Below, in pieces: positions 48,335-64,000 of a stretch of 64,000 bases of DNA (position 1 is its first letter; every line of letters starts with the position of its first letter). The notes below the pieces were generated by a model. The model had not been told where the DNA came from. It did not search any database and saw only the letters and a list, made by a program, of their open reading frames with translations. The stretch spans positions 1-64,000 of the forward strand of contig JAIPBS010000011.1 of the NCBI GenBank assembly GCA_021738625.1. Direction: 5' to 3'. The stretch is from Bacteroidales bacterium (GTDB lineage Bacteria > Bacteroidota > Bacteroidia > Bacteroidales > JAIOZK01). The position numbers and the translations under genes are program-made.

Positions 48335-48407
<73 letters not shown>

Positions 48408-48596: not shown

Positions 48597-48881
48597 CCAT
48601 ATAAAACAACTGCTGTTTATTTTGAGGTAGTCTTTTCTTACTGTAAATCAATACCCTGTTATTCCTGATGATGCATCCAGTGATCTTATTGATCTCATTT
48701 TTCTGTTGCCGGGTGATGTTTGTGTTTTTATCTGTGTTTATCCGGGTAATCTGTGGTGAGTTTTACCACAGATGGCCACAGATTTTCACAGATTGAAATT
48801 TAAAAAGTGAAATTGTTCACCTTTACAATGCGTTCGGCGCAAAACTGAAAAAAACATCTGTGTTTTAGAGAAAAAAATAAG
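48597..48881. other. Gene-free spacer with ACAGAT repeats
   Basis: Contains a perfect hairpin ATCTGTGGT / ACCACAGAT (48749-48773, seven-base loop), followed by GGCCACAGATTTTCACAGAT, and preceded by TCTGTGTTTATC. CCACAGAT-type repeats are common between genes of Bacteroidota. No gene is seen. Confidence 0.5.
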
Positions 48882-48893: not shown

Positions 48894-49196
48894 ATGAGTA
48901 TTGTTGATCAAAATATTGACAGAATTCGTAAACTATGCGAACAGCATTATGTTTCGCACTTATCCGTATTTGGTTCGATTTTGACTGATAAATTCGACAA
49001 AAATAGCGATATTGATTTTTTGGTAGACTTTTCCAATATGGACTTGAAAAACTATGCAGACAATTATTTCAGCCTGAAACAAGCTTTCGAAAAAATATTT
49101 GGACGACAGGTTGATCTGTTGGAAAACAAAGCGATCAAAAACCCTTATTTACGACAATCAATCAACTCTTCAAGGCGACTTTTATATGAATCCTGA
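48894..49196 (+). CDS. mntA: MNT-type nucleotidyltransferase, antitoxin of a HEPN/MNT pair
   Basis: 100 residues with the minimal nucleotidyltransferase core VFGSILTDKFDKNSDIDFLVDF, where GS and DxD bind nucleotide and Mg2+. In MntA/HepT systems this enzyme adds AMP to a tyrosine of the HEPN toxin and silences it. The partner gene overlaps its 3' end by 11 bases. Length and motifs are normal for an active enzyme. Confidence 0.88.
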   Translation: MSIVDQNIDRIRKLCEQHYVSHLSVFGSILTDKFDKNSDIDFLVDFSNMDLKNYADNYFSLKQAFEKIFGRQVDLLENKAIKNPYLRQSINSSRRLLYES

Positions 49197-49503
49197 AATC
49201 AAAACCTGGCTTTTCGATATTCTTCAATCAATAAATGAAATTGAAAGCTATTATAAGGACAGACCAAAAATTTTCGCTGAATATGAAAATGACATCAGAA
49301 CAAAGCGGGCGGTTGAGCGAAATATCGAAATTATTGGAGAGGCTGTAAACCGGATTCTAAAAAAAGACAAGGGTTTTGAGATTGATAATGCTCAACAGAT
49401 TATTGGGACCCGGAACCGGATAATTCATGGATACGACAGAGTTTCTGACGACATGATTTGGAGTATTGTGATAAATCATTTGCCAAAACTAAAAACTTCC
49501 TAA
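49186..49503 (+). CDS. hepT: HEPN-domain RNase toxin (HepT type)
   Basis: 105 residues from ATG 49186, chosen because the upstream frame overlaps the antitoxin. Helical HEPN fold with RAVERNIEIIGEAVNRILK and the RNase motif RNRIIHGYD (R-x4-6-H), whose nearby Tyr (HGY) is the site modified by MntA in known pairs. Directly followed, after two bases, by a small lipoprotein gene. Expected to be a growth-stopping RNase held by the partner. Confidence 0.88.
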   Translation: MNPEIKTWLFDILQSINEIESYYKDRPKIFAEYENDIRTKRAVERNIEIIGEAVNRILKKDKGFEIDNAQQIIGTRNRIIHGYDRVSDDMIWSIVINHLPKLKTS

Positions 49504-49505
49504 TT

Positions 49506-49946
49506 ATGAAAACTGGTAACTTTACGATCATTCTTTTTGCTTTATTATTTTTCAGCAGCTGTTGCCGTGAAAAGGAAAGCATTATCGGCACCTGGAGTTT
49601 TTGCCTTGATGGCATCTATCATGAACTTTATATAAATGAGTCACTTATCGCAGAGTGTACTCATGGTATTATGGCTGTATCTCCTTCAAACCAATATATA
49701 CTGAATAATGATACAATATTTATTTATAGAGATGAAAATATTGTGAATCATATTCCGATTCCGATAATTGAGAAAAACAAAATAGTTATATTTTATGATG
49801 ACAATTGGGTGGTTTGTGATAGGGTTTCGGAGGTAGAAAGTATATACTATCAGGAAACTTTTGTAAATCGGAAAGAACTAAATAGATTTATATTCAGGTT
49901 TAAATTAAGAGCGCAGAAAACAGATTGTGAAGGCAGTCCATTTTGA
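49506..49946 (+). CDS. Hypothetical small lipoprotein
   Basis: 146 residues from ATG 49506. Lipobox FFSSC (Cys19 or 20) and a beta-rich domain starting IIGTWSFCLDGIYHELYI, a lipocalin/META-like pattern. It starts two bases after hepT and is likely on the same transcript, though no link to the toxin system is known. Family not recognised. Confidence 0.6.
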   Translation: MKTGNFTIILFALLFFSSCCREKESIIGTWSFCLDGIYHELYINESLIAECTHGIMAVSPSNQYILNNDTIFIYRDENIVNHIPIPIIEKNKIVIFYDDNWVVCDRVSEVESIYYQETFVNRKELNRFIFRFKLRAQKTDCEGSPF

Positions 49947-50007
49947 ACTTTGTCTGAGGAATTATTCAGTCGCCACTTAATAATTCCACAGAACCATTGA
50001 CTAAAAT

Positions 50008-50211
50008 ATGTTGATAGAAAACACATTCAAATACAATCTGCCTGGCCGGCAGGCAGGCGGAAAAGAACTTAACGAAACCAACGGCCTCAGATGGTACGAT
50101 TACGGTTTCAGAAGATATGACCCTCAAACAGGACGTATGCATGTGATCGATCCTAAGGCTGAATCAAATCAATTCATGTCACCTTATATTTATGCAAGTA
50201 ACACCCGCTAA
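50008..50211 (+). pseudogene. RHS core fragment interrupted by a palindromic insert
   Basis: 67 codons. After ten leading codons ending FKYN, the RHS core signature GKELNETNGLRWYDYGFRRYDPQTGRMHVIDP appears, and the frame stops after YIYASNTR where an RHS protein would read Y-A-N-NP..DPDG. Both ends are missing. FKYN and GKEL, normally joined, are parted by the seven extra codons LPGRQAG. A relic of a second RHS gene. Confidence 0.65.
50038..50058. repeat. 21-bp palindromic mini-insert within the RHS fragment
   Basis: CTGCCTG and CAGGCAG around GCCGG (50038-50056), plus GC, inserted in frame between the codons for FKYN and GKEL. Its length of 21 bases kept the reading frame. Confidence 0.65.
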
Positions 50212-50253
50212 AATGAAACAAAATGCTTGAAAGAACGTTTATTTTAATATATA

Positions 50254-50270
50254 TGTACCACAATGGTACA
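50254..50270. promoter_or_regulatory. Operator-like palindrome before the Phd/YefM antitoxin
   Basis: TGTACCA-CAA-TGGTACA, a 7-bp perfect inverted repeat ending 16 bases before the antitoxin ATG. YefM-type antitoxins autoregulate through palindromes with TGTACA cores, so the fit is good. Confidence 0.6.
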
Positions 50271-50286
50271 CGAAAAATTTAATGGT

Positions 50287-50538
50287 ATGTTAGTAATTAG
50301 CAGTAGAGAATTTAGACAAAATCAGAAGCTTTACTTTGAAAGAGCTGATAAAGGTGAGCAAATTATTGTTCAACGAGGAAAAGATAAAGCTTATGCTTTA
50401 ACTCCTATAAATGAAGATGACGTTTATTTTAACGCTGAAATGATCAAGAAAATAAAACTCAGCGCAGAACAGGCGAAAAATGGTGAAGTGAAAAAAATTA
50501 CAAGTTCTGAAGAAATAAACGACTTACTTGGATTATGA
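50287..50538 (+). CDS. Phd/YefM-type antitoxin
   Basis: 83 residues from ATG 50287; an earlier ATG at 50263 lies inside the operator palindrome. VISSREFRQNQKLYFERADKGEQIIVQRGKDKAYALTP (split here: SREFRQNQ, KGEQIIVQRG) is the Phd/YefM DNA-binding fold, and the acidic C-terminal helix IKKIKLSAEQA...INDLLGL would wrap the toxin. The partner toxin is broken, so this is an orphan that may still repress its promoter or neutralise toxins made elsewhere. Confidence 0.8.
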   Translation: MLVISSREFRQNQKLYFERADKGEQIIVQRGKDKAYALTPINEDDVYFNAEMIKKIKLSAEQAKNGEVKKITSSEEINDLLGL

Positions 50539-50645
50539 GTTATGTTCTGGAATTCACCACAATAGCCTTAAGAGATATAGAAAAGCACAATCAGGAAAAG
50601 CGGTATTCCCGCTACTGCGCTATTGTATCGCGTGGGTGTCTTTAA
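50535..50645 (+). pseudogene. Truncated RelE/YoeB-type toxin
   Basis: Starts inside the antitoxin stop (ATGA overlap). The first 18 residues, MSYVLEFTTIALRDIEKH, match the opening of RelE-superfamily toxins. Sequence then turns to an unrelated GC-rich stretch and stops at codon 37. The catalytic part is missing, so toxin activity is lost. The break is probably an insertion of, or recombination with, the repeat-like DNA that follows. Confidence 0.65.
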
Positions 50646-50921
50646 TACTTTGTCGGGCCTTTTGTTCTGAGTTGCCATAAACAAGGCAATCGACAGAATC
50701 AAAACAACTTATTTCAAATCCCCTCACCTCCCCTGCAAATGAAACCATCCCGCCTTTTTCAGATCATCATTTCTTAATGGCCGGGTTTTCCGGGAAAGCA
50801 ATCCCGAAGGGATTTAATACGAATAGCGCCGCATGCAATGCGGTGTTAAAAGACAACAGAGATGTGCGGGAACCGCGCTGCGGTTCAATATATGCCCAAA
50901 TCAATATTTTCTCATAAAAAT
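50646..50921. other. Gene-free spacer with small hairpins
   Basis: Contains two short perfect palindromes: CCGCAT-GCA-ATGCGG (50829-50843) and GAACCG-CGCTG-CGGTTC (50870-50886). Such GCATGCAATGC and CCGCGCTGCGG elements are common intergenic repeats in this group. The left part is the probable foreign sequence that cut the toxin. No coding frame is convincing. Confidence 0.45.
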
Positions 50922-50952
50922 TTTGAACCAAGTAACTTTTAAGTTACCTTTG
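50922..50952 (+). promoter_or_regulatory. Consensus promoter and operator of higBA, giving a leaderless transcript
   Basis: TTTG (50922-50925), 19 bases, TACCTTTG (50945-50952): an exact match to TTTG-N19-TAnnTTTG. The inverted repeat GTAACTT-TT-AAGTTAC (50932-50947) overlaps the -7 element, a typical place for the HigA antitoxin to repress. The ATG of higB begins four bases after the -7 element, so transcription should start at about the start codon. Confidence 0.7.
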
Positions 50953-50956
50953 CGAA

Positions 50957-51307
50957 ATGAATAATGTAAGAAAGGTTATAGCCTATAAGCATTACTTCGA
51001 GGAGTTTTTATTGAGTTTACCTATAAAAACTCAAAACAAGGTTTTTAAGATCATTGAAGCCATTGAGACCTTTGAAAGAGTTCCATCTAACTACCTGAAA
51101 TACATAAAAGGTACAGAAGGTCTTTTTGAAGCAAGAGTCAAGCTTGGCAGTGATATATGGAGAGTATTCTGTTTTTTTGATGAAGGTAATTTGGTAATTT
51201 TATTGAATGGATTCGCTAAAAAAACACAAAAAACTCCCAGGAATGAAATTGCAAAAGCAGAAAAGCTAATGAAAGCGTATTATCTTGAAAAAAGGAGGAA
51301 ATCATGA
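50957..51307 (+). CDS. higB: HigB/RelE-type toxin
   Basis: 116 residues of the phage-derived Gp49-like/HigB type: YFEEFLLSLPIKTQNKVFKI, VPSNYLKYIKGTEGLFEARVK, then DIWRVFCFFDEGNLVILLNGFAKKTQKTP. RelE fold mRNA interferase; the Arg and Lys residues at the end are in place. Overlaps the antitoxin start by four bases (ATGA). Toxin first, antitoxin second is the usual higBA order. Confidence 0.9.
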   Translation: MNNVRKVIAYKHYFEEFLLSLPIKTQNKVFKIIEAIETFERVPSNYLKYIKGTEGLFEARVKLGSDIWRVFCFFDEGNLVILLNGFAKKTQKTPRNEIAKAEKLMKAYYLEKRRKS

Positions 51308-51597
51308 ATACCAAAAGTTGGAGTGAAATAAAGGATCAGGTTTATGGAAAAAAGGGGACGAAAAGAAGAGATGAACTTGACAGAGAGTTTGAGTCTTTTA
51401 AGATCGGATTAATGTTGCGCAAAGCAAGGGAAGAAAAGCAGTTAACACAAGAGCAATTGGCAACAAAACTTGAAAAAAAGAGGACTTATATTTCCAGAGT
51501 CGAGAACGATGGAAGTAATCTTACTTTAAAAACGCTTTATGACATTGTTGAAAAGGGTTTGGGTGGGAAGGTAAATATTTCAATTGACTTGAAATGA
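51304..51597 (+). CDS. higA: HigA-type XRE antitoxin
   Basis: 97 residues. Unstructured start, then a helix-turn-helix of the XRE kind: LMLRKAREEKQLTQEQLATK, KKRTYISRVENDGSNLTLKT and LYDIVEKGLGGKVNI. It should bind HigB and the palindrome at 50932-50947. The last gene of the toxin-antitoxin hotspot. Confidence 0.9.
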   Translation: MNTKSWSEIKDQVYGKKGTKRRDELDREFESFKIGLMLRKAREEKQLTQEQLATKLEKKRTYISRVENDGSNLTLKTLYDIVEKGLGGKVNISIDLK

Positions 51598-51660: not shown

Positions 51661-54600
51661 CTATTCTGCCTCGTATCTGAATATCTCTCCTGACCTGAGG
51701 CCTTTTTCTTCCAGCCGTTTCAACTCTGTCCGGGCTTCCCCTCGTGTGTTGTAGTGATTGGTAAAAATATACATTACGCTTGAGGATGCATCATAGCCCA
51801 GGTAGGATCTCACTCCCTGCTCATGAAAAATCCTGATCAGTTTTACAGCGGCTCTTTTGTTTGATGTGGTGTCGAGCAATACATAATATTTGCCATCTTC
51901 CATCTGCTTTTCGCTGTAGTCGAATGTATCGATGTTGAATTCGGGGATGCTGTTTTTATCAGGCGGACTTTCACCTGTTTTTTCATAAACTTCACCGGAA
52001 AGCACTTTGAATTTTTGCAAATCTTCTTTTTCCCCGGCCGGTTTGGCCTTTTTAAATTTGATCTTCCTGCTCATTTCCACAACTTTGAAAATTGTGCTGT
52101 CCGAAATGCTGTCGTTGACCTCGGCCAGGATGTCGTTTTTCATGATCTTGAAACTGCTGCCGAAAACATTTTGCATACGGACGTGGTAAGTGTTGTTTCC
52201 AGGGACATATATGGCGAAACGACCGTCCTTGCCGGTAAAGGCCGAATAGCTATTCCCTTTTTCATTGTAAGCCGTAATTCTGATATTGTCGAGTTTGATA
52301 CGTTGATCGGTTTCGGAGATAAATTTTTGGCGTTGCATATCTATTTTTCCTTCAATCCTGCTGGCCTTTTGAAATGGAATTTCGTAGGTTGCCCGTTCAA
52401 GTATTTCGAGTGTTTCGATGTTTTTTCCAACAAAGAAATATTCTTTGAGGTCGGAGAGCGGGGTGATGGTGATGTCATATTGTCCCATAGGAACCTTGTT
52501 GAATCGCACCACTCCTTTGTCATTGGTGAGCAGGCTGACGTCAAAAGGCAATTTTCTTGTCCCGGCTTCAACCGGTTCTATCAGCCTCAGCCCCACCTTC
52601 ACCGAACGAATCCCCTTTTCACCTCTATCTTTTCTGCCATTCCCATTTTCATCTCTGAAAAGCTGAATTCGTATTTTTCGCAATTGCCTTGATCGGTTTT
52701 TTTTATCCGACTTCCCCCACTTTTTCTTTAGTGAGAACTCCGCATAATAGAAGGTATTGTGGGTTTTTTTGCCGTTGAATTCCTGTGTGGTATAACTGTA
52801 TGTGCCACCCGCCACAACATACCAGTCTCTGAAAAGGTAGGTTTCAACTTTGGGGTTGATATTCAAAGAACCGTATTCCAGGTCGAAGCGGTAGGTGTAA
52901 TTGGTGAAAAAGGTAAGGTAAACGCGGTCGTTGAACAATTCTTTGATGGCATAAGGTGAAACGTTGATCCGGCTGTTGCCGGCGTCGATGGCGAACTGGT
53001 ACAGCCCTTTGTTTACAACCGGTCCGTAATCATAGGCCAGCTGGATGCCATATCCTTTCATATCCCAGGAAGCCAGCGCGTGAATATCAAATTTGCGTTC
53101 GGCGATGCTATCGGTGTCTTCATGAAAAATATGGCCAATGCCGGTTTTAAGATTCAACATAAGATGACGCCCAAGCAGGGCCTTATATTCCATCCTGTAT
53201 TTATTCACTTTATAGATATCCATGCCGGTTTCCTCCGAACCGGGACGATAAGAGCGATAGAATTCGACGCTGGGGCCGGCCAGCCAGCGGTAGAACTTCC
53301 CCCGGTTGTCATGATAGAGCACATTGGCATATTGATCTTTCAAAAGAATATTGGATTTGCGAACACCCTCATAAGTCATGTTGTAGTAGTCTCTTTTGCT
53401 GTTGATATAATTTGCCGAAACATAGTTTTTCTTGTCGATAAAATACCTGGCTTTGGCATAAAAATTCAGCAAGCCCATCTGTCGGCCCGGTATATCAGGA
53501 GATCCGTAGTTATTGGTCAGTTGATAGCTAAGTTTGTCGCCGATCTTACCAAAAAAATTAAGGTCGTAGGCCACACCCATCAGGCTGTATTTTTTATCCC
53601 GGTAATGATGTTCGTGAAATGCATACAACACCCCGCCGACCTCATGATTTTTAAACAAAGGCAAGCGTCCCAGTTGAACGATCGCCGATGCGGTATTTCT
53701 TTTCCTACCCTCATCCATATTGTAAGCAAGCGAAGTTTTTATATCCCTGTTGTCTTTTTGCAGATGGTATCCAAGTGCCGCACTCGTATTCGGCGTCAGC
53801 AGGCTTGTGCTTGCATAGGCTTCGATGCTGCTGCTTTTGTTCAGTTCAATTTTATCGGCAACCATAATGCTGCTGCGGTTGTAGAGGTTTCTGCCAAGCT
53901 GAGAGCTGAATGCTCCCAGGCCTACCCTCAAATCTTGGCGCCTGTAAAGAAAGCTATAGTAGCTATTGCTCACAAAGTTCTCATTGGCCGTGATATCGTA
54001 ATAATTGAAATTGTACTTGAAGCTGCTTTCGTTGCTGATATCGACAAATCCCCTGGCTTTGATGAAGGGCAACACTTCGTTATTATGTGAAAAAGTCCTG
54101 ACGCCGGCTTCGGTTTCATGCGGCAGGTTTCTGTCGAATTCAAGGGGAGCATAAGTGTCGGAATATTTTTCCAGAATCACCGAGCGGTGTAGAATCTGAT
54201 CGCCCGATGAAGCCGTGATCCTGACTTTATCCAGATCGAATACCCGCTCGTCATCCGATTTAAAAAATGCTTTGAATTCCAGAGTTGTATCCCGGTTCGC
54301 TTCCAGGGTGATTTCATTGTAAGCATCGATGATGCCGACCTGTTCCAGTTTTATTTTATTTCCGGGTTCAATATCCAGTTGTATGGTTTCGGGCGTGTTG
54401 CCCCGGTTGCTCACCACCACATCAAACCTCACAAATTGCAAATTGGGTTGGAAAATTATGCGTCTTTCAGGGATCAGCACATTCCAGTTATGGACAGCCT
54501 CCAGTTCAATGCTCAGATCGCTTTCAGCAAGCAGGTTGCCATTGGGGGAGAGGGCTTTAAAATTTACCTTATGGCTGATATTGCCATTTGCATGTGTCGG

Positions 54601-54954
54601 TATTTTTAGCCGGAATGGCAGGCTGATGGTATCTTTTGCACCCACCAGCGTGTCTCTGAATACGGCGCCGAACATGGCCCAGCCATCGGGTATATTGATT
54701 ATTGGCCTGATGGGGATTGCATCCGTTGAAGGGTTGATCACACGGACAACATTGAACATGATGCTGCCCGCGTTTTCGTGGATTTCGGGTTTTACGAAGT
54801 AGGCCCTTAGTTTTTGATAATCTTGTGAAAAGGAGGAGGTGATGCCGAGAAATGCAAAGCAGAAAAACAGCAGCAAAGTATTTTTTGCCGGCTGTAATTG
54901 TTTTATGGTATTTCTTTCTTCAAGACTTATTTTGATGAATTGACTGGTTCGCAC
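51661..54954 (-). CDS. Large outer-membrane barrel-like protein in usher position, with CNA-B-like and SPOR-like C-terminal domains
   Basis: 1097 residues from a GTG at 54954 (no ATG fits), overlapping the previous gene by 28 bases. Order seen: signal peptide ending SSFSQ; two Ig-like domains (about 45-270) with NGNISHKVNFKALSP and VVSNRGNTPETIQLDIEP; a long alternating, aromatic-rich strand region (about 290-770), as in outer-membrane barrels; a calcium-loop CNA-B/SdrD-like domain (IQLFRDENGNGRKDRGEKG, about 790-880); a second such domain; a linker; and a SPOR-like end (KYYVLLDTT...AVKLIRIF...GEARTELKRL). By position it would be the usher of the cluster. No standard usher family signature was recognised, so this is inference. 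Confidence 0.6.
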   Translation of the reverse strand: MRTSQFIKISLEERNTIKQLQPAKNTLLLFFCFAFLGITSSFSQDYQKLRAYFVKPEIHENAGSIMFNVVRVINPSTDAIPIRPIINIPDGWAMFGAVFRDTLVGAKDTISLPFRLKIPTHANGNISHKVNFKALSPNGNLLAESDLSIELEAVHNWNVLIPERRIIFQPNLQFVRFDVVVSNRGNTPETIQLDIEPGNKIKLEQVGIIDAYNEITLEANRDTTLEFKAFFKSDDERVFDLDKVRITASSGDQILHRSVILEKYSDTYAPLEFDRNLPHETEAGVRTFSHNNEVLPFIKARGFVDISNESSFKYNFNYYDITANENFVSNSYYSFLYRRQDLRVGLGAFSSQLGRNLYNRSSIMVADKIELNKSSSIEAYASTSLLTPNTSAALGYHLQKDNRDIKTSLAYNMDEGRKRNTASAIVQLGRLPLFKNHEVGGVLYAFHEHHYRDKKYSLMGVAYDLNFFGKIGDKLSYQLTNNYGSPDIPGRQMGLLNFYAKARYFIDKKNYVSANYINSKRDYYNMTYEGVRKSNILLKDQYANVLYHDNRGKFYRWLAGPSVEFYRSYRPGSEETGMDIYKVNKYRMEYKALLGRHLMLNLKTGIGHIFHEDTDSIAERKFDIHALASWDMKGYGIQLAYDYGPVVNKGLYQFAIDAGNSRINVSPYAIKELFNDRVYLTFFTNYTYRFDLEYGSLNINPKVETYLFRDWYVVAGGTYSYTTQEFNGKKTHNTFYYAEFSLKKKWGKSDKKNRSRQLRKIRIQLFRDENGNGRKDRGEKGIRSVKVGLRLIEPVEAGTRKLPFDVSLLTNDKGVVRFNKVPMGQYDITITPLSDLKEYFFVGKNIETLEILERATYEIPFQKASRIEGKIDMQRQKFISETDQRIKLDNIRITAYNEKGNSYSAFTGKDGRFAIYVPGNNTYHVRMQNVFGSSFKIMKNDILAEVNDSISDSTIFKVVEMSRKIKFKKAKPAGEKEDLQKFKVLSGEVYEKTGESPPDKNSIPEFNIDTFDYSEKQMEDGKYYVLLDTTSNKRAAVKLIRIFHEQGVRSYLGYDASSSVMYIFTNHYNTRGEARTELKRLEEKGLRSGEIFRYEAE

Positions 54955-55559
54955 TCCGATAAAGTTAGATAAAATCTTCCCGTAAAATAATCATCTTCCA
55001 CATTCAGCCTTGAAAACCGCTTGACTTTGGCCACTTCATCTTCAAAGGTAAATTGCCATCTCAGTATAAAGGCGTTTTCTGCCGAGCCGCCGATATTGTT
55101 CCGGCTTCCGTTCACCAAAACCATATTTTCATTGGGCGTAAGAGAAATGACTGTGTCTTTTGCTTTATTGGTAATGTTGGAGAACAGACCATTGTCCCAG
55201 TTATCTCCGCGGTTTTCTATGCTGTATCCCAGGAATTCAACAGGTATTTTTTGTGTTGAGTCTTTTTTCCCTTTAAAAAAGTCGGCTTCGGTTGAAATGG
55301 ACAGGTTCCAGTTGCTGGTGGATTCCACGCTAAAATAAACATCTTCAGGAGGCTTGCTAATTTGGTAAAGATTATCGTTGACCTTTTTAACGCCAAACTC
55401 GATAAGGGTTTCTGGTTTGATATTAAGCACCAGCACCGATTCCAGTTTGGCTTCGAACTGGGTTTCAAACTGACTTTCCTGGGCATGCAAATGGCCCGGC
55501 AGTTTTAAAACAGCCAGGCCGGTCAAAATCAACCAAAAAGTTTTCCTCAAGAAAAACAT
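54927..55559 (-). CDS. Secreted DUF4402-like subunit protein, member B
   Basis: 210 residues from ATG 55559 (the frame is open 20 codons further, but the signal peptide starts here: FFLRKTFWLILTGLAVL). Beta-rich, with FEAKLESVLVLNIKP, VESTSNWNLSISTEADFF and NNIGGSAENAFILRWQFTF. The STSNW and NAFxLxW pieces are shared with the products at 55641 and 59063. Twenty-eight bases of overlap with the usher-like gene suggest strict coupling. Likely a structural subunit or an adaptor at the usher. Confidence 0.65.
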   Translation of the reverse strand: MFFLRKTFWLILTGLAVLKLPGHLHAQESQFETQFEAKLESVLVLNIKPETLIEFGVKKVNDNLYQISKPPEDVYFSVESTSNWNLSISTEADFFKGKKDSTQKIPVEFLGYSIENRGDNWDNGLFSNITNKAKDTVISLTPNENMVLVNGSRNNIGGSAENAFILRWQFTFEDEVAKVKRFSRLNVEDDYFTGRFYLTLSECEPVNSSK

Positions 55560-55640
55560 AAATAAGGATTTTATAAATGGACAATAAGGAAATGCAGCAC
55601 TCAGCCGCATTTCCTTCACACATAATGAACCAAAAATCGC

Positions 55641-56234
55641 CTACAATGCTGTAAGTGTTAAGTTTACAGTTGTGGTAAAAGTACCGATATTGGCAATTGT
55701 TCCATCAGAAAGTTGCTGGAAGATACTGGCGGCATTCATCGTACCGTTCATCGTGCCCATTGTCCAGTTCAGGTTAAATGCATTGTCTGCGGCGTCACCG
55801 CTGTTTTCTCCACCGTTGCCCAGAAGAGTCTGATCAGTTGCGGTTATTCCCATTGCATTGGCAAGTGAAGTATAATCACAGGTAACTTCCGTGCCGATTT
55901 GGTGAGCGCCTGTTGCTTCACACCATACTCCTAAATTGTCGATTGGGATAAGGGCAGTTGCTCCGTCTGAAAAATCAGCGGCATTTATCTTCACATCCCA
56001 GTTACTGGTTGATTCAACGGTGATGGTTGTGGTTCCAACCGCATCAATACCCAGGTTATATTTGTCCGGTGTGTCGAATGTTGCGGTCTGGTCCTGACCA
56101 CTTGTTACATTAATATTCAGTACTGACTGTAGAATAGCCGTAAAGTTTACTACGTCCGTGTCCGTATCCTGAGAAAAAATATTCGTTGCCTGCATGGCTA
56201 CGAAGATGGTCAGGATGAGTGTAAGCTTTTTCAT
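55641..56234 (-). CDS. Secreted DUF4402-like subunit protein, member A
   Basis: 197 residues. Signal peptide ending IFSQ; strands FTAILQSVLNINVTSGQDQT, VESTSNWDVKINAADFSDG, then CEATGA..VTCDY (two Cys for a likely disulfide) and DNAFNLNWTMGTMNGTM with a VNLTLTAL end. This is the DUF4402-like beta-sandwich seen in pilin-like subunits of chaperone-usher neighbours. The glycine-, threonine- and asparagine-rich make-up and the position 5' of member B and the barrel fit the major subunit. About 240 bp without a gene lie upstream, where its own promoter is probable. Confidence 0.7.
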   Translation of the reverse strand: MKKLTLILTIFVAMQATNIFSQDTDTDVVNFTAILQSVLNINVTSGQDQTATFDTPDKYNLGIDAVGTTTITVESTSNWDVKINAADFSDGATALIPIDNLGVWCEATGAHQIGTEVTCDYTSLANAMGITATDQTLLGNGGENSGDAADNAFNLNWTMGTMNGTMNAASIFQQLSDGTIANIGTFTTTVNLTLTAL

Positions 56235-56475
56235 GATTCAAATGTTTTAAATTAATAAGTTTTAATTTTTTGTCTTTTTAAAAATAGCCTTGAAATTAAA
56301 AGGCGACTTTTTGCTCCTGTTACAAAGTCTTAAGGTTAATTCCCTTTATGGACAAAAAGTATCCCGCATTTATCGCTGATTTGGTGGAAATATTTGCTGA
56401 AAAGCAACTTCAAAAAAACTGATAAAAGGACTGACGGCAAACTTCCCAGGCTTGATTTGTGTTACGAGTCTTTTG

Positions 56476-57120
56476 CTATTCAAGGGATACAAGGCCGTTT
56501 CGAATGGCGTATTTCACCATGTCGGCGGTGCTGTTGAGGTTCAGCTTTTCGAGAATGTGTTGCCTGTGGGTACCCACGGTTTTAATGCTAACAAAGATTT
56601 CATCGGCGATTTCCTTGGTTGATTTCCCTTCTGCAAACAAAATCAGTACTTCGAGTTCACGAGCAGTAAGTCCGGTGGTTTCCGCTTTGTTTTCATCCTT
56701 GTTCAGATACTCCTGGATTAAAACCTCCGTAATGTCGTTGCTCAGATATTTTTTACCTGAATGAACTGAATTGATGGCGTCGATCAATTGATCATAGGTG
56801 CAGTTTTTAAAAAGGTATCCCCTTGCGCCGGCTTCAAGCATTGCTTTAACATAATGCTGATCGGAGTGCATGGTAAGTGCGATCACTTTTACTTCGGGGT
56901 GATTTTTGAGGATGTTCCGGGTGGCTTCCACACCGCTCATTACCGGCATGCTAACATCCATAAGAACCACATTGGGATTCAATTTCTCAATTTGTTCAAG
57001 GGCCATTTTCCCGTTTTCGGCCTCGCCAACAATTTCGATGTCACCGGCGTCCGACAACAGGTTTACCAGTCCTTCGCGGAACAACTTATGATCGTCAGCT
57101 ATGATAATTTTTATGGCCAT
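56476..57120 (-). CDS. NarL/FixJ-type response regulator
   Basis: 214 residues from ATG 57120 (a TTG six bases upstream gives a slightly longer frame). Receiver with IIADDHK, VLMDVSMPVMSG (Asp55) and LFKN.T near Lys104; LuxR-type helix-turn-helix TARELEVLILFAEGKSTKEI...IFVSIKTVGTHRQHILEKL. Starts right after the kinase gene. Its place inside the subunit cluster makes the pilin-like genes and the barrel gene likely targets, for example from the 240-bp gap at 56235-56475. Confidence 0.93.
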   Translation of the reverse strand: MAIKIIIADDHKLFREGLVNLLSDAGDIEIVGEAENGKMALEQIEKLNPNVVLMDVSMPVMSGVEATRNILKNHPEVKVIALTMHSDQHYVKAMLEAGARGYLFKNCTYDQLIDAINSVHSGKKYLSNDITEVLIQEYLNKDENKAETTGLTARELEVLILFAEGKSTKEIADEIFVSIKTVGTHRQHILEKLNLNSTADMVKYAIRNGLVSLE

Positions 57121-57126
57121 AATCAA

Positions 57127-58986
57127 TTATTGTTTAAGTGGTACTTTAATGCATACGCTTGTACCCTTGTTTATCCGGGATTCGATCTGCATACTGCCCT
57201 GAATGGAATCAAGTCGCTCCTTTATGCTGAACAATCCCTTGCCGCCGTAATCGGATAAATTGGCAGTAGGTTTGTAATTGAACCCCTTCCCGTTATCCGA
57301 TACCGCAAGATATAAAAAATCCTTTTTCTCATGCAGTTCAACTCTAACTTTATCGGCATGGGCATGCTTGCCCGTATTTGCCAGTAGTTCACATAAGATT
57401 CGATAAATCAGGATCCGAAGATGGTTATCGAGTGCATACCTTTCTTTTTCACTGATCACTTTGCATTTCAGATTAAATTCGTCGGATACCTGATCCAGTT
57501 TCCATCTTATGGCAGGTAAAAGACCAAGCTCAAACAAAATGGGCGGGCTCAGATCGTAGCTAAGCAACCTTGTCTTTTTTATGGCCTCATTGAGCAAATT
57601 TGAAGCCTCACCAATGGTTTTCTTCACTTTAGGCAGCAATTCAAGTTTACCCAGTGAAGTTAGTTTAAGGTTGGCAATGGAGAGTTCCTGCCCGATCCCG
57701 TCATGGATGTATTCGGCAATGCGCTTTCGCTCACTTTCCTCGGCATTAACAAGTTCTGTATTTAGCTGCTTCAGTCGTTTCTGATAGTTCCTTATCCGGT
57801 TAAGGTCTTTTTTGCGGGCTTTCTCCGCCAGTTTCTCTTTTGTGATATCCCGGATAAAAATATAACGCTGGTCTTTTTCAAGACCCAGATGGTTGATGCT
57901 GATCTCAACATTGATGATGTTATCTTTTTTTTGCCGGTGCGTGGATTCGAATCGCTTGTGGCCATCCTCTTTATTGGATAAATAGTGGGAGTTGATCCTT
58001 TTACTGTTTGATGCCTCCAGATCGAAGATGCTCATTTGAAGCAATTCTTCCTCTGTATAGCCCGTCATGTTAATGATCGCCATATTTACTTCCTGGATAT
58101 GGCCTTGTTGATCGATGAGGCAGAAACCGTCGATGGATGTGTTGATGACGGTACTCAGTTTTTCTTCATGAAGCATGCGCTCGGTAATGTTCTGACTGGC
58201 GCCCCGGTACCCTGTAAACTCATTTTGTTCGTTGAAAATGGGAAAGCCACTGATGGCGAGCCAGACCCTGTTTCCGTTAAAGGCTGAAAACAAAAACTTT
58301 TCCCTTTCAAATTTTTTCTTTTTTTTCAGGAGTTTAAGAAAAAAGGCTTTGGTTTGCTTCCGGTGGTCTTTGTGGCTATGATCCCAAAGATATTTTCGAC
58401 CGGTGAAGTCTCCTTTTGCAAATCCCAATACATCTTCCACAACCGGGCTGATGTACTGGAAACAACCGGTTTGATCCACCTCCCAGAATATTTCATTGGC
58501 ATAACCGGCTATCTGATGTATTCTTTCCTCACTATTGGAAAATTCTTTAAGTTGACGTTTAATGGTTTGCTCGAGCTGGATGTTCTGTTCACGCAACTGG
58601 TCTTCTGCATTTTTAATGCGCAACATAACCCTGACCAGGGCGACCAGTTCCGCGGCGTCGTAAGGTTTAATGATAAAAGCGTCAGCACCTTCATTCAAAC
58701 CCTTGATCCTGATTTTGGGATCATAACCATAGGCGGAAACCAAAATGATGGGAATGCTTTTTGTTTGATCGCTGCTTTTAAGCAAAGAACAGACCTCGAA
58801 TCCGCTCAAATCGGGCATAAAGATATCCAGCAGTATGGTTTCGGGAAGATGTTGCTGGGCCAGGTGAACGCCTTCCGATCCTGAACCGGCCAGCAATATT
58901 TCATAATCAGGCATCTTCTTTTGAAGCACATACCTGATCAAAGTAAGATTATCGCTATTGTCGTCTATGGCGAGAATTTTTTTCAT
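57127..58986 (-). CDS. Hybrid sensor kinase: receiver, two PAS domains, HisKA_3 kinase
   Basis: 619 residues from ATG 58986. Receiver (1-120) with AIDDNSDN, LLDIFMPDLSG (Asp54) and the IKPYD lysine; coiled-coil linker; PAS 1 (about 150-270, with ISPVVEDVLGFAKGDF) and PAS 2 (about 275-395, with CLIDQQGHIQEVNMAIINMTGYTEEELL); HisKA_3 with AEYIHDGIGQELS (His428); HATPase with GKGFNYKP and GGKGLFSIKERL. No membrane segment, so it is a cytoplasmic kinase that reads an inside signal or another kinase through its receiver. Pairs with the downstream NarL-type regulator. Confidence 0.92.
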   Translation of the reverse strand: MKKILAIDDNSDNLTLIRYVLQKKMPDYEILLAGSGSEGVHLAQQHLPETILLDIFMPDLSGFEVCSLLKSSDQTKSIPIILVSAYGYDPKIRIKGLNEGADAFIIKPYDAAELVALVRVMLRIKNAEDQLREQNIQLEQTIKRQLKEFSNSEERIHQIAGYANEIFWEVDQTGCFQYISPVVEDVLGFAKGDFTGRKYLWDHSHKDHRKQTKAFFLKLLKKKKKFEREKFLFSAFNGNRVWLAISGFPIFNEQNEFTGYRGASQNITERMLHEEKLSTVINTSIDGFCLIDQQGHIQEVNMAIINMTGYTEEELLQMSIFDLEASNSKRINSHYLSNKEDGHKRFESTHRQKKDNIINVEISINHLGLEKDQRYIFIRDITKEKLAEKARKKDLNRIRNYQKRLKQLNTELVNAEESERKRIAEYIHDGIGQELSIANLKLTSLGKLELLPKVKKTIGEASNLLNEAIKKTRLLSYDLSPPILFELGLLPAIRWKLDQVSDEFNLKCKVISEKERYALDNHLRILIYRILCELLANTGKHAHADKVRVELHEKKDFLYLAVSDNGKGFNYKPTANLSDYGGKGLFSIKERLDSIQGSMQIESRINKGTSVCIKVPLKQ

Positions 58987-59062
58987 CTGCAAAACACCAT
59001 TTACCGGATATTCACCGGCTCAAAATATGATTATCCTTTTTAAGCTGCAAATTTCATAGCTG

Positions 59063-59629
59063 TCAGGGGATAACCGAAACAGTTAAAATAATATTTACCG
59101 AATAACTGTCCGCTTCGATCATTTGTTCCAGTATGCTTAGGTTTTTCATATTGCCGCGTTGGGTCCCCATTTCCCAGTTCAATGTAAAAGCATTCCTGAT
59201 GCCGTAACCTTTGTTGGTTTCACTGCCTTTGGTTAGTAACAGCACCTCATTACTTTCAAGTGCTATTGGTGCTGTTTTGGCGTAGTTGATGATATTGGAG
59301 CCGTCATCCAGGTTCGTGCCGGTTGAAACTACAACAACGCCCACATTGTTGAGTTCCATTTGGTTCGTGGGGTCGTTATCTCCATAAAACATATCCTGGT
59401 CCGCACTAAAATGCAGCTGCCAGTTGGTGATGGACCCAACCCGGATAAAGGTGGATTGAGGCCCGTTCATGATCCCGTTCTTGTATTCGTCCATATCATC
59501 AAAGTTGAAAACGATGCTATAGCCCGAAACGATACTAACCCGCAAGGAAGGATTGCCCGGCGGAATATCCTGGGCCGGCAGGGTTTCGTATAAAAACAAT
59601 ATGAGCAGCAGCGAAAGCAGTTTTCTCAT
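59063..59629 (-). CDS. Secreted DUF4402-like subunit protein, member C
   Basis: 188 residues. Signal peptide ending LPAQ; SIVSGYSIVFNFDDMDEYKNG, SITNWQLHFSADQDMFYGD and GYGIRNAFTLNWEMGTQRGNM, with a VNIILTVSVIP end. The NW and NAF-L-W-MGT pieces match members A and B across the same length. No cysteine pair as in A. It stands on the far side of the kinase/regulator pair, so it may be a tip or adaptor subunit. Confidence 0.65.
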   Translation of the reverse strand: MRKLLSLLLILFLYETLPAQDIPPGNPSLRVSIVSGYSIVFNFDDMDEYKNGIMNGPQSTFIRVGSITNWQLHFSADQDMFYGDNDPTNQMELNNVGVVVVSTGTNLDDGSNIINYAKTAPIALESNEVLLLTKGSETNKGYGIRNAFTLNWEMGTQRGNMKNLSILEQMIEADSYSVNIILTVSVIP

Positions 59630-59716
59630 CTTTTCTTCCTCAGTAAGTTATGCCGATCGGAGCATACAATCAATCATTTCAAAGCTGTTCCGAATCGGTA
59701 TAAACCGGCCATTGAC

Positions 59717-60901
59717 TTATTTAATCTGCCTGACCAGCTTATTATCATAAAATTCAGCCTGTTCGAGGATGTTGCCCTCCTCGTCGTAGGCTGTTAGTAT
59801 GCCTTCCAGTTTTCCGTGCTTATAGTAAAGGTCCAGTTTGATGGAGCCATTTTCATAATAATAAACCCAATGACCGTGCTCCAGGTTGTCCTCATAGGTT
59901 CCTTTTTTCTTGATCTGACCGTTTTCATAATAAAAAAGCCATTTACCCTCGGACTCACCTTTCCTGTAATTCCCTTTTTGCTTAAGCCCGCCGTTCGGGT
60001 GATAGATTAACCAGAGCCCCTCGGCAAAACCATTTGCATATTGACCTTTCATGTATGTGGTCGAGTCATGATACAAGGAGGTCCATTCCCCGGTCCTCTT
60101 GCCTTTTTCATACCTGCCTTTTTCGTAAAGGCTACCGTCAGCATAAAATTGCTTCCATACTCCTTCTATCCGGCCGTTTTCATAATGCGCTTTTATCATC
60201 AATTGCCCGTTCTCGTGGTAAACAAGGTAGGGCCCGTCAATTTTAAACGACTTGTTGTAGGAATATTCTTTCTCTTTTTGCCCGTTTTTATAGAATGATT
60301 TGTAGTCACCATAAAAACGTTTCCCGATCATCGTTCCCTGCTCTTTCAATTCACCTGAGGGATAATAGATCTCATATATCCCGTTTTGAACGCTGTCGGC
60401 AAAATTCATCCTGTAGGCGGGATTTCCATTCGGATAATAACCTTCTGTCAATCCATTCAGGCGGTTGCCCATATAAATCCTGCTTTCTTGTAGTTGGCCC
60501 CCGGGATAATACAGGCTCATTTTGCCGTTCAGCGAATCATTGATATAAAAACCCTCATCCTTAACACTGCCATTGTGGTAATAATTGTGGAATGAACCGT
60601 TTTTCAGCCCATCCCTGTAAAGGGCTTTTCTTTTCAAATGGCCATCCGGAAACCAGGTGGTCCAGATCCCTTCCATTTTTCCGTTATGAAAGAATCCATC
60701 CTGCCAGGGTTTTCCGTTGGAATAATAAAAATAAGCGCTTCCCTGCCAGAGCGTGTCATTGGCGGTGACCTTTCTGTCGATTACGGATTTGATCATACCG
60801 TTTACATGGTATAATGTATCGGTATAAAAATCCTGGCTATGCGCAGTAAACTGCATAAACAGGAACAGGATAATCAGTTTTACTTTACAGGCAAATGGCA
60901 T
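59717..60901 (-). CDS. Secreted MORN-repeat (YwqK-like) protein
   Basis: 394 residues. Signal peptide, then about 15 MORN_2 repeats of about 23 residues, G.w..Y..nG.....Y..G...G.., e.g. DGHLKRKALYRDGLKNGSF and NGQIKKKGTYEDNLEHGHW. Such proteins are elongated beta sheets that often bind partner proteins or membranes. The start is eight bases after the chaperone-like gene, so they share a transcript. In this setting a scaffold or periplasmic guide of the export system is possible; no direct evidence. Confidence 0.85.
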   Translation of the reverse strand: MPFACKVKLIILFLFMQFTAHSQDFYTDTLYHVNGMIKSVIDRKVTANDTLWQGSAYFYYSNGKPWQDGFFHNGKMEGIWTTWFPDGHLKRKALYRDGLKNGSFHNYYHNGSVKDEGFYINDSLNGKMSLYYPGGQLQESRIYMGNRLNGLTEGYYPNGNPAYRMNFADSVQNGIYEIYYPSGELKEQGTMIGKRFYGDYKSFYKNGQKEKEYSYNKSFKIDGPYLVYHENGQLMIKAHYENGRIEGVWKQFYADGSLYEKGRYEKGKRTGEWTSLYHDSTTYMKGQYANGFAEGLWLIYHPNGGLKQKGNYRKGESEGKWLFYYENGQIKKKGTYEDNLEHGHWVYYYENGSIKLDLYYKHGKLEGILTAYDEEGNILEQAEFYDNKLVRQIK

Positions 60902-60908
60902 GTATTGT

Positions 60909-61721
60909 TTATTTCACCTCTATTTCCAATTGTATACCCTCGAGTTCTTCGTTGTAGCCGTAATCAAGAATAGCTGCAACCGAGTAGAGGCCCTTGTCAA
61001 GTTTTTCTTCGAGTGCATATTCAACATCTTTGCTTGATTCGGGCAATACTGAGAATTCGATGGGTTCTGATGTGAATTCTTCAGCTGTCTCCAGATTTGA
61101 AACTGTAAAGAACACTTTGCAATTCAATATCTTATCACCCAGGTTGATTACTTTCGTTTGGTAAATGCGCGAAGTATCCGTTACCTTTTCTGATAAACCT
61201 TCGATGGTGCCTTTATACAGGGTGTTGCTCGAAGGCGATTGAAAAACCGGCACGGCAATGCGTGCGGCAACCTGCAGGCCCATGCGCACGTCTTTGTCGA
61301 TGGCTTCGGGGCCTGTTCTTTCTTCAGCAGATTCAACAAAGACCACCGCCCATTTGGTTGCATTGTTACCTTCAGGAACGAGCATGGTTACATTCACGCC
61401 CACCGATTCGTTTGGTTGTAATGTAACCAGCGATGGGGTGATGGTGATCCACTCGGCGCAGGAACGTGAAACCGATCCCGGGCTGAAATATTTCACTTCA
61501 CCCGATTCGTCGGTTAGCCAGTCGGCAATGTTAAAAACAAATGATTGTTCGGTTTTGGCTTTGTTTCTAACGTAAATCTGCTGGGTTTGCGATGAACCCG
61601 GATTGGCAGTAAACATCATTGAGCCTGGCGAAACTTCTATTTCTTGGGCATTGGCGATACCCGAAAAGATCAACATAAAGCATAAACCAGACATCATGAA
61701 ATAACTAGCGATTGTTTTCAT
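60909..61721 (-). CDS. PapD-like periplasmic chaperone (fimbrial chaperone type)
   Basis: 270 residues from ATG 61721. Signal peptide ending NAQ; N-terminal Ig-like domain EIEVSPGSMMFTANPGSSQTQQIYVRN, then QSFVFNIADWL, EWITITPSLVTLQPNESVGVN and KWAVVFVES; then VAARIAVPVFQS and a second beta domain to YGYNEELEGIQLEIEV. The start (strand A1/G1 pattern with P-S-x-V-T-L-Q-P-N-E) resembles PapD/FGS-type pilus chaperones and the DUF916-like proteins that bind surface WxL proteins. Chaperone role is inferred from fold and from neighbours. Confidence 0.6.
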   Translation of the reverse strand: MKTIASYFMMSGLCFMLIFSGIANAQEIEVSPGSMMFTANPGSSQTQQIYVRNKAKTEQSFVFNIADWLTDESGEVKYFSPGSVSRSCAEWITITPSLVTLQPNESVGVNVTMLVPEGNNATKWAVVFVESAEERTGPEAIDKDVRMGLQVAARIAVPVFQSPSSNTLYKGTIEGLSEKVTDTSRIYQTKVINLGDKILNCKVFFTVSNLETAEEFTSEPIEFSVLPESSKDVEYALEEKLDKGLYSVAAILDYGYNEELEGIQLEIEVK

Positions 61722-61791
61722 AATTTCAATTTTTTTTGTGTTGCGAATTGGTTTTACAGCATTTTGGTTCATTTTCTTTCATTTTAATTAA

Positions 61792-63300
61792 TTATCTTGT
61801 TACGAATATTTTACAGTTAAAGTTGCCCTTTTGATGGATAATATTCACAATATAGCATCCCGGTTCCGTATTCAAAGGTATACTTTCTTTATCGAAAACA
61901 AATGAAGGCAGATTTATAACAAGCTGTCCGGAAATGTTGTAAACTTTAACCAGGGCAGATATTTGTTTGTCTGTTTGTTTTTGGATATGCAAGCTGTTAC
62001 CCTCGTAAAAAACTTCAAAATATGATTTGGACTGATCGTTTTGAAGCATTTCCTCAGAGGGATTCAGGAGCAAACTGAAGCGGTTCCGGGCGTAGTTTGT
62101 TTGATGAAAGAATTGGTATGCGGAGTCCCGGCTGATTTCAGTAAGTTGTTGTGTGAGATGATCTTTTAAATATACTTTGGTTGACGGGGGCAAATTGCTT
62201 TTCTTGTCAAGCATGATGCTATATTCGCCATCAGTGCCACAACGAAATCGCAGGTCGAAACTCAAACCATCTTTAATTGTCTTTACTGAATTTATCGTCA
62301 GGTTGCTTTTCGACTGAAAAGTCCATATTTGCGGCGCATTTTCATTCAAGCTGAAAAGCTTGGCGGCGTCGGTGTTTGCATCGAAGGCATTTGTTGCGTA
62401 AGGTAAAAATCTTATCAGGGTTTCATCGCTGTATCCATTGGCAGCAGTGCTAAGGAAAATTGCCGGATAATCTTCCCGCCCCGATTTATAGTAATCCGGT
62501 GTGGAAGGCGTTTGCGTTATGCGGCAATTGTTGTTCACCTGCAGCGTGCCGTTTTGCGCTGCCTGCACCCAGAACCCCTGGTTGGAAGGAATGTATCTTG
62601 TGCCTCCGTTTATCCCGACCGGATCGTTCCCGCCCAGAAAGATCGTATAGTTTCCATTTGACGGATTCCAGATATATTTTGCGTCGTTGATGGCGGTTTT
62701 ACCCCAGCCTGATTCAGTTAGCCAGTCGACCGGCGAAGGGTAGGGGTTGCCTACCAGGTTCCAGCCTTTGTGGCTTTCGATCTCTCCATTCTGCGGATCG
62801 GTTTTGAAAACGCTTATGCTGTATGCGCCTGTATTAAGGGAACTTGGGCCGGACCCAGTGTATTCGGCGGTAATGGCCGAAGGCAGATAAACATCGTAGC
62901 CTTTCATCACATCGAGCGACCCTTCATACATCACCCAGCCAAAGTTCCAGTCGTTCTGAATGATGGTTTCATCATAGTAAAAGACCAGATCGGTTCCCGT
63001 GTATACACTGCTGTTTGCACTACCGACGGGTGAAGAGGTGTTGTGCCATCCGTTGGCCGTCAAATATCTTTCTATGCTGATGCTTCCTGTGATATTGCAG
63101 TTTCCTCCCGTGTTTTGATCGGCCAGGTAACCCGAGCCGCCTGCATCCGATTTGATGTAAAGATTTGTTCCGATATGCAGGCTCGAACCGTCTTTAACAG
63201 TAATGGCGCTTGTCGGGCTGATGGTGAACTGGGCGAAACTCACTATTGACCCGACAGGCAGTAAAAGCAAAATTATGATATGTAGCCGTATGATTTTCAT
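61792..63300 (-). CDS. Secreted protein with T9SS-like C-terminus
   Basis: 502 residues from ATG 63300, two bases after the upstream stop (TGAACATG). Signal peptide ending VSFAQ; FTISPTSAITVKDGSSLHIG, GNCNITGSISIERYLTANGW (the T9SS-associated opening of autotransporter-like passenger proteins), GWNLVGNPYPSPVDW, and a C-terminus with VKVYNISGQLVINL and GCYIVNIIHQKGNFNCKIFVTR (shown here in part as GCYIVNII). The end has the YNISGQLV / G-Y-V-I / KI-V pattern of type A sorting domains. Surface protein of the cluster. Confidence 0.75.
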   Translation of the reverse strand: MKIIRLHIIILLLLPVGSIVSFAQFTISPTSAITVKDGSSLHIGTNLYIKSDAGGSGYLADQNTGGNCNITGSISIERYLTANGWHNTSSPVGSANSSVYTGTDLVFYYDETIIQNDWNFGWVMYEGSLDVMKGYDVYLPSAITAEYTGSGPSSLNTGAYSISVFKTDPQNGEIESHKGWNLVGNPYPSPVDWLTESGWGKTAINDAKYIWNPSNGNYTIFLGGNDPVGINGGTRYIPSNQGFWVQAAQNGTLQVNNNCRITQTPSTPDYYKSGREDYPAIFLSTAANGYSDETLIRFLPYATNAFDANTDAAKLFSLNENAPQIWTFQSKSNLTINSVKTIKDGLSFDLRFRCGTDGEYSIMLDKKSNLPPSTKVYLKDHLTQQLTEISRDSAYQFFHQTNYARNRFSLLLNPSEEMLQNDQSKSYFEVFYEGNSLHIQKQTDKQISALVKVYNISGQLVINLPSFVFDKESIPLNTEPGCYIVNIIHQKGNFNCKIFVTR

Positions 63301-63302
63301 GT

Positions 63303-64000
63303 TCACCAACTCCTCATAATTCTTATAAAGAACAAATTTTCATTTGGGATCAATAACACATCACCGCTATTGGTTTGTCCGTTTACCATTACTTCGATAT
63401 AATCATTTGCATTCAAATCTACCAGAAACGAACTGCTAATATGGGAAGATTTATCATCCGATTTACTATAAGTAAAAGAATAAGATGAACTGCTTTGAAT
63501 ATAAGTTGTTCCGTTTTTCCTTAACCTGGAGCGCAGGGTTTTTCGCTGGTTGTCGTCATTCTCAATACTGAACATATAGTTCAGCTCATAGGTGCCGTCA
63601 TACTTCACCTGAATGCGGCTGGGATTGGAGGTGTTCGAATGGACAAATGTTGCAGTATCTTTAAACATCTCCACATCCCATGGTAGGGAAACATCACCCG
63701 TAAGGTAATTCAGGTTGATGTTTGAGGTCGAACCGAGCTGCATCACTTCTTCTTCGGAAATGCTCTCGGTAACAGTCACCGTAGATTTGTTGTTGCCGTT
63801 GTCAATAACTTCTACGGCCCCTTCGAAATTCAAAACATTAACTCCATCCACAATCAGGAAATCATCCTTTTCAATATCCAGAGGAAGGGCTTCATCCCAG
63901 CTTGCATTGCCGTTGGCGTCAGAAATCAACACCTTATCCTGGCCTGCATTTGTTGGCATGGTAAAACCACTGGTAGTGACTTTATTCACTCCGCTGACGT
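63303..64000 (-). CDS. Tip-like protein with C1q/TNF-like C-terminal domain (partial, runs off the right edge)
   Basis: The frame is open through the right edge, so the 5' part is missing; a GTG at 63989 is internal. VSGVNKVTTSGFTMPTNAGQ (edge), DANGNASWDEALPL, then a C-terminal jelly-roll of C1q kind (about the last 140 residues: LPWDVEMFKDTATFVHSN, IQVKYDGTYELNYMF, NDYIEVMVNGQTNSG). Such trimeric heads end fibre, phage-tail and collagen-like proteins. It ends two bases before the T9SS-like gene's ATG. It may be the adhesive tip or an anchored fibre; the missing part would tell. Confidence 0.7.
   Translation of the reverse strand, partial: VSGVNKVTTSGFTMPTNAGQDKVLISDANGNASWDEALPLDIEKDDFLIVDGVNVLNFEGAVEVIDNGNNKSTVTVTESISEEEVMQLGSTSNINLNYLTGDVSLPWDVEMFKDTATFVHSNTSNPSRIQVKYDGTYELNYMFSIENDDNQRKTLRSRLRKNGTTYIQSSSSYSFTYSKSDDKSSHISSSFLVDLNANDYIEVMVNGQTNSGDVLLIPNENLFFIRIMRSW

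Follow-up and report, generated by a model that had tools for sequence, protein, structure and literature searches.

A probable chaperone-usher-like pilus cluster of Bacteroidota and its link to the TLP-1 fibrils

The DNA analysed here (the window) is the first 64,000 nucleotides of contig JAIPBS010000011.1 from a Bacteroidales bacterium (GCA_021738625.1; host genome assembly 4.1 Mb), and the subject of this report is the gene cluster at positions 51661-64000. The cluster very probably encodes a Bacteroidota pilus that is assembled in the chaperone-usher manner. It is a member of a conserved Bacteroidota system, the core of which is a periplasmic chaperone, at least two related secreted subunits, and a barrel protein of about 1000 residues. 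Subunits of sister loci are homologous to TLP-1a and TLP-1b, fibrils solved by cryo-electron microscopy (cryo-EM; PDB 9IKJ and 9IKK, released 2024-11-13), and the system is probably a chaperone-usher-like pathway of its own, with fibrils of the TLP-1 type as its product. An earlier note on the sequence had proposed a new surface-fibre system. A chaperone-usher-like system is supported by the present analysis; however, the fibre is not wholly unseen, since TLP-1 filaments have been in the PDB since 2024.

The cluster consists of ten co-directional open reading frames (ORFs) on the minus strand, as the note had described, with gaps of -28 to +241 bp between neighbours:

51661..54954, minus strand: usher-like outer-membrane assembly protein, 1097 residues (AlphaFold2 model, Foldseek, VIA-align 2, family conservation)
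54927..55619, minus strand: pilin-like subunit c, 230 residues, with an N-terminal donor extension of 17 residues (match to profile A6, E 2e-34)
55641..56234, minus strand: pilin-like subunit b, 197 residues, with an N-terminal donor extension of 18 residues (AlphaFold2, PDB fold match); probably the major subunit
56476..57126, minus strand: NarL-type response regulator, a locus-specific accessory (Pfam Response_reg and GerE)
57127..58992, minus strand: hybrid sensor kinase with a receiver, two PAS domains, HisKA_3 and HATPase, a locus-specific accessory (Pfam)
59063..59629, minus strand: pilin-like subunit a, 188 residues, with a short N-terminus of 10 residues (profile match E 5e-42; counterpart in loci L015 and L112); probably the fibre cap or tip
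59717..60901, minus strand: secreted protein with MORN_2 repeats, a recurrent partner of the chaperone gene (Pfam E 8e-46)
60909..61772, minus strand: PapD-like periplasmic chaperone with two immunoglobulin (Ig)-like domains and the G1 donor-strand motif RIAVPVFQSP (hhalign; G1 alternation)
61792..63309, minus strand: secreted protein of 505 residues with a type-A tail of the type IX secretion system (T9SS), an accessory (TIGR04183 above cut-off)
63303..64000, minus strand: C1q-like or tail-fibre-like secreted protein, an accessory, 381 residues in full and clipped by the window edge (weak PHROG tail matches alone)

The operon does not end with the window; another tail-fibre-like gene follows. 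A scan with Pfam and other libraries gave weak Ig-type matches for the chaperone (287 residues), and none for the three small secreted proteins.

The layout is kept in dozens of relatives. Two outcomes had been named in the note as refuting its proposal, a predicted non-usher and a gene order without conservation in any relative, and neither was observed. Relatives of the 1097-residue protein occur in 11 of 60 near genomes. The full-length barrel profile was swamped in the phylum search by matches to the OmpA domains in the tails of the relatives, and the profile was therefore trimmed. With the trimmed profile, the order yielded 60 carriers among 393 genomes. A sample drawn across the phylum yielded 9 among 395, namely the host genome itself and eight genomes from other orders of the class. 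The chaperone family was present in 79 of the 393 genomes of the order. Barrel and chaperone were shared by 57 of these genomes, against 12 expected (Fisher p = 2e-46, a nominal value that ignores phylogeny). Among the 41 barrel-gene loci that were read, subunit genes were found in 38 and a chaperone nearby in 30; two or more subunit relatives adjoin the barrel gene in nearly all of them. The arrangement is far beyond chance. Moreover, when 16 barrel-bearing genomes were examined, the chaperone was present in all 15 with at least 90% completeness, sometimes away from the barrel gene. The one genome of the same genus is without both the barrel and the chaperone genes. The patchy distribution is partly due to assembly gaps and partly real.

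The TLP-1 proteins form 16-chain filaments in the cryo-EM structures, which presumably come from a pond-water survey (CryoSeek). These structures were solved without genes or organism, whereas assembly genes were found here. As far as could be checked, the TLP-1 fibrils have no known maker, the original structure description aside. A 2026 review describes the pond-water filaments of the CryoSeek studies as not identified by proteomics or metagenomics (PMC12967142). A profile built from the first 24 subunits matched the TLP-1 chains (E 1e-9). A subunit from a sister locus aligned with TLP-1b over the whole chain (E 4e-43); the chain in the structure begins where the signal peptide is predicted to be cleaved. 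The sister-locus subunits are 40-55% identical to TLP-1 over the full chain, and the donor segments are nearly identical (LISEQNVTVTMDLQPVLQ against LIDEKNVTVTMDLQPVLQ).

An alignment led by TLP-1 retrieved 104 relatives from named genomes, and 80 loci were kept. The best relative shares 55% identity over 235 residues and comes from a metagenome-assembled genome labelled Chitinophaga pinensis; nearly all of the records are labelled Bacteroidota, and one is labelled Chlorobiota. The barrel gene was found in 76 of the 80 TLP-1-like loci, a second subunit in 78, and the chaperone in 69. For loci of at least 12 kb the counts were 61/61, 61/61 and 57/61, respectively. Commonly, the chaperone gene is followed by that of a subunit with extension, then one lacking it, and then the barrel gene.

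The three small secreted proteins of the window belong to one family: one profile, run over the whole genome, gave strong matches to precisely these three. The note had called them DUF4402-like beta subunits; the secreted family of three was recovered, but the DUF4402 label was rejected, as none of 80 subunits matched this Pfam family at E 0.1. The N-terminus between the signal peptide and the core is either 16-20 or 2-10 residues long, with few exceptions. Most loci have one short form and at least one long form, and the short N-terminus belongs to the second subunit in most loci. The extension of the long form has alternate hydrophobic residues (for example, IPVSVTL and VTVTMDL). In a strict test of donor alternation on 78 TLP-1-like loci, 68 of the first subunits and none of the 78 second subunits were positive. 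Eight more first subunits share the YNYVTMDLRGIL version, which narrowly failed the test. Some second subunits do have a long N-terminus, which carries a cysteine pair and no alternating strand.

Other orders of the class have a protein of 340-480 residues in place of the extension-less subunit. Its subunit domain is C-terminal with extra domains in front, a layout like that of FimH and CsuE. The two subunit forms and the C-terminal-domain variant are what would be expected of donor-strand exchange with a cap subunit. In these orders, loci L096-L101 also have several tandem, near-identical long-form subunits besides the adhesin-like 340-480-residue protein, some with an adjacent LuxR-type regulator; the tandem copies are a possible source of subunit variation.

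AlphaFold2 modelled subunit b with confidence (pLDDT 92) and left residues 18-38 unpaired, which corresponds to a predicted free N-terminus. The best fold matches in the PDB were TLP-1b (Z 10.8 over 158 residues) and TLP-1a (Z 10.7), as determined by VIA. After TLP-1, most of the remaining rows were pilins of chaperone-usher systems with Z-scores of 5.6-6.7, which are middling alone and notable for their consistency.

The PapD-like label of the chaperone proved right, though it is weak by Pfam. The single protein matched PapD_N at E 0.008, below the cut-off, and the lone sequence gave no useful match in the PDB, so that a profile was required. The profile of 30 members matched seven E. coli chaperones of the PapD family with a probability of 96% in hhalign (E 2e-9), over 213 columns and both domains, a score to which the signal peptide contributed in part. 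In this alignment, the RIAVPVFQSP motif coincides with the E. coli G1 donor strand, and the strands are in register. The alternate positions of G1 are hydrophobic in 29/30, 30/30 and 30/30 members.

The 1097-residue protein is predicted to be a large outer-membrane barrel, as the note had suggested. The AlphaFold2 model (pLDDT 80, pTM 0.46, which makes the placement of the domains unsure) contains two Ig-like domains at about 47-264, a 26-strand barrel at 279-746, two beta domains at about 758-960, and a SPOR-like domain at about 1020-1093. The SPOR-like assignment was made from secondary structure. In Pfam, the C-terminal part matched SdrD_B and CarboxypepD_reg; among 42 members of the family, the tail has an OmpA domain in 15 and a SPOR match in 4. 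The usher domain order (N-domain, barrel, two C-terminal beta domains) is present in the model, which is a prediction alone. A structure check proposed in the note had asked for a barrel, an N-terminal chaperone-binding domain and a plug; the barrel and periplasmic-type N-terminal domains were predicted, but no plug. The longest loop of the modelled barrel has 17 residues, and a large insertion in the barrel is absent from 41 relatives, which suggests that the usher plug is missing.

In Foldseek, FimD (best E 8e-11) and then PapC, with E-values from 8e-11 to 9e-8 between them, ranked above all other outer-membrane barrels (BtuB 2e-7), alongside long Ig arrays that matched the other domains of the protein. 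PapC was second in VIA-align 2 (Z 15.7), with LptD and porins close by. The VIA alignments to FimD covered 496-516 residues, from the barrel into the C-terminal domains, but with a root-mean-square deviation of 13 Å. A peptide-pattern scan with the 1097-residue protein gave no match, and the phmmer search against the PDB returned lysozyme matches alone, which were discarded as spurious. In another locus (L227; G033:C11:802-1296), a 1078-residue ORF has a sub-threshold match to PF00577 (E 2.5e-4) and is possibly a further usher-like protein.

Several results weigh against a chaperone-usher-like pilus. The barrel family has no sequence relation to the FimD family (hhalign 0.5%), and none of the 149 genomes of the order that were scanned has a PF00577 match above the cut-off, whereas the E. 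coli control was positive. The subunits are likewise without sequence relation to FimA-type pilins (hhalign 8%). The first rank in VIA-align 2 was not an usher, but the 26-strand MtrB (Z 19.1), and the barrel Z-scores are generic. If the barrel is plugless as modelled, its gating would differ from that of known ushers. The best PDB sequence match of the chaperone profile is EfmWxLIP1, a WxL-interacting protein of Enterococcus faecium (full length, E 3e-7), so the chaperone fold alone does not prove a role in pilus work. Finally, the subunits of the window are only 18% identical to TLP-1b, so the locus is tied to TLP-1 only indirectly. Given the structural likeness without a sequence link or PF00577, the 1097-residue protein is best described as usher-like in architecture and role, and not as a member of the usher family.

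The alternative that survives best, although it is unlikely, is that the fibre leaves the cell by way of the T9SS or a different route, and that the barrel protein only anchors it to the outer membrane and the peptidoglycan. The OmpA and SPOR domains of the family and the plugless barrel would suit an anchor; moreover, the T9SS component SprA is encoded in the host genome, and the operon itself includes the T9SS-tailed protein. However, Pfam and TIGRFAM-type scans found the T9SS tail on the 505-residue protein alone and on none of the subunits (80 subunits and those of the window), and this protein is absent from nearly all other loci. Nor would a protein that serves purely as an anchor need a 26-strand pore flanked on each side by Ig domains, and the domain order is usher-like.

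A classical chaperone-usher operon that was gained from Proteobacteria and has since diverged is strongly disfavoured. The overall layout is alike, the chaperone is detectably related, and the fold ranking is usher-like; but the PF00577 count and the hhalign comparisons with FimD and FimA given above are opposed to this origin, as are the 26 strands and the absent plug in all members and the wide and deep distribution in Bacteroidota. Equally improbable is a complex of the periplasm or cell surface that is not a fibre, similar to the Gram-positive clusters of WxL and WxL-interacting proteins. The EfmWxLIP1 match and the match to WxLIP_PGBD in 20 of the 30 chaperone members are in its favour; whereas the sister-locus subunits are 40-43% identical to proteins that form 16-chain filaments, and the fold list of the subunit consists mostly of pilins. 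At the level of sequence, the WxLIP match suggests that two-Ig proteins which bind strands form a broader family, and it hints that the two strand-binding families have an ancestor in common. The least credible explanation is a variant type V (Mfa/Fim) pilus, a polymer of lipoprotein subunits that assemble once cleaved by a protease and need no usher: the phylum is the same and the polymer is also formed by strand exchange, but none of the 80 subunits matched the Mfa/FimA families of Pfam, inspection by eye showed no lipobox cysteine behind the predicted signal peptides of the three window subunits, and in most loci the subunits occur together with a PapD-like chaperone and a large barrel.

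For the chaperone-usher-like pilus, the following assembly can be proposed. The subunits and the chaperone, which have signal peptides, would enter the periplasm, where the G1 strand of the chaperone would complete the open Ig fold of each subunit. The complexes might then be received by the Ig-like periplasmic domains of the 1097-residue protein. Subunit a, without donor extension, would come first and cap the fibre. Subunits b and c would join next, each inserting its extension of 17-18 residues into the groove of the preceding subunit, and the fibre would exit through the 26-strand barrel. The SPOR-like C-terminal domain (OmpA in many relatives) may anchor the pore protein to the peptidoglycan. 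Expression may be under the control of the kinase-regulator pair, in whose place relatives have other signalling genes.

The note had taken this two-component pair as the system's own regulator. Both genes are present; however, they were found only in the window locus among the loci read, and the pair was rejected as a part of the core. At the same position, L015 and L112 have just a gap or an unrelated ORF, which suggests that the pair was inserted or added late. Regulators are present in only some of the other loci and are of different kinds: LuxR-type regulators in L096-L098 and L100, and a TPR-SpoIIE protein in at least eight Bacteroidales loci. The latter, a protein of about 630 residues with TPR and SpoIIE-phosphatase domains, recurs by the subunit genes (L111:12137-14026 and L113:4574-6478, and similar in L104 and L114-L117), and may be a conserved regulator of the pilus. 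A scan for sigma-70 sites was uninformative (29 sites against 23.6 expected).

The other accessory genes are also variable. The MORN protein was correctly recognised and has 11 stretches of MORN_2 repeats (Pfam). Its gene adjoins the chaperone gene in 14 of 42 loci read, and none was found in the 80 TLP-1-like loci. The T9SS-like part of the note holds for the tail of the 505-residue protein (TIGR04183; 26.6 bits, cut-off 23), but among the loci read a relative stands beside the chaperone only in L112, the closest full cluster. The C1q identity of the 63303-64000 product was dropped, as no Pfam match supports it; the gene just upstream of it, beyond the window edge (locus L014), encodes a second similar protein of 366 residues. 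It is unlikely that the 63303-64000 product is the fibre tip, as the note had it, and the extension-less subunit a is a better candidate.

Just downstream of the operon, on the plus strand at 48894-51597, are several short genes that resemble toxin-antitoxin pairs by sequence. The span 48894-49503 holds a nucleotidyltransferase together with a HEPN-like protein; a Phd/YefM-like product follows at 50263-50538, and a RelE/HigB-like protein is paired with an Xre-type regulator at 50957-51597. At 48350-48668, overlapping ORFs on both strands run through an apparent tandem repeat of about 20 codons (QGSNPCGETIGSAVSPRARR), and are probably non-coding for protein.

If the assignment is correct, the TLP-1 fibrils gain genes, an assembly route and candidate host lineages. 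Cultured carriers of the cassette (among them Flavicella, Wenyingzhuangia, Natronoflexus and Alkalitalea) make the question directly testable. A further proposal is put forward tentatively, as one that may well not hold: the cluster might represent a second, independent chaperone-usher solution in Bacteroidota, in which a PapD/WxLIP-type chaperone works with a pore that is not homologous to ushers (26 strands, plugless, with a peptidoglycan-binding tail), and which makes TLP-1 fibrils and is widespread in Bacteroidota of freshwater, sediment and marine habitats.

Comparison with the WxL-interacting proteins (DUF916/DUF3324) showed the same two-domain Ig-like build as in the chaperone, with the profile match described above; whereas those proteins are Gram-positive, have no outer membrane to serve, and have different partners. 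The type V (Mfa/Fim) pili of Bacteroidales are also strand-exchange pili of Bacteroidota, but their families are unmatched here. Type V pili have no chaperone or usher, and their lipoprotein subunits are matured by a protease. The closest likeness in layout is to the classical, archaic and alternative chaperone-usher pili (Fim, Pap, Csu, CFA/I and ECP). Shared features are a PapD-like two-Ig chaperone with an alternating G1 strand, subunits with a predicted incomplete Ig-like fold and donor N-termini, one extension-less cap or tip subunit, a large barrel with periplasmic domains before and after it, and a compact operon. The present system differs in the lack of PF00577 homology, in a modelled barrel of 26 strands (24 in ushers) that has no plug, in two Ig-like N-terminal domains, an added SPOR or OmpA domain and unrelated subunit sequences, and in a host from another phylum. 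To our knowledge, a plug gates all known ushers, whereas the pore of this system seems to work without one. The reported range of chaperone-usher pili is Proteobacteria, Cyanobacteria and Deinococcus-Thermus (PMC4654587), to which the present cluster would add a distinct Bacteroidota branch.

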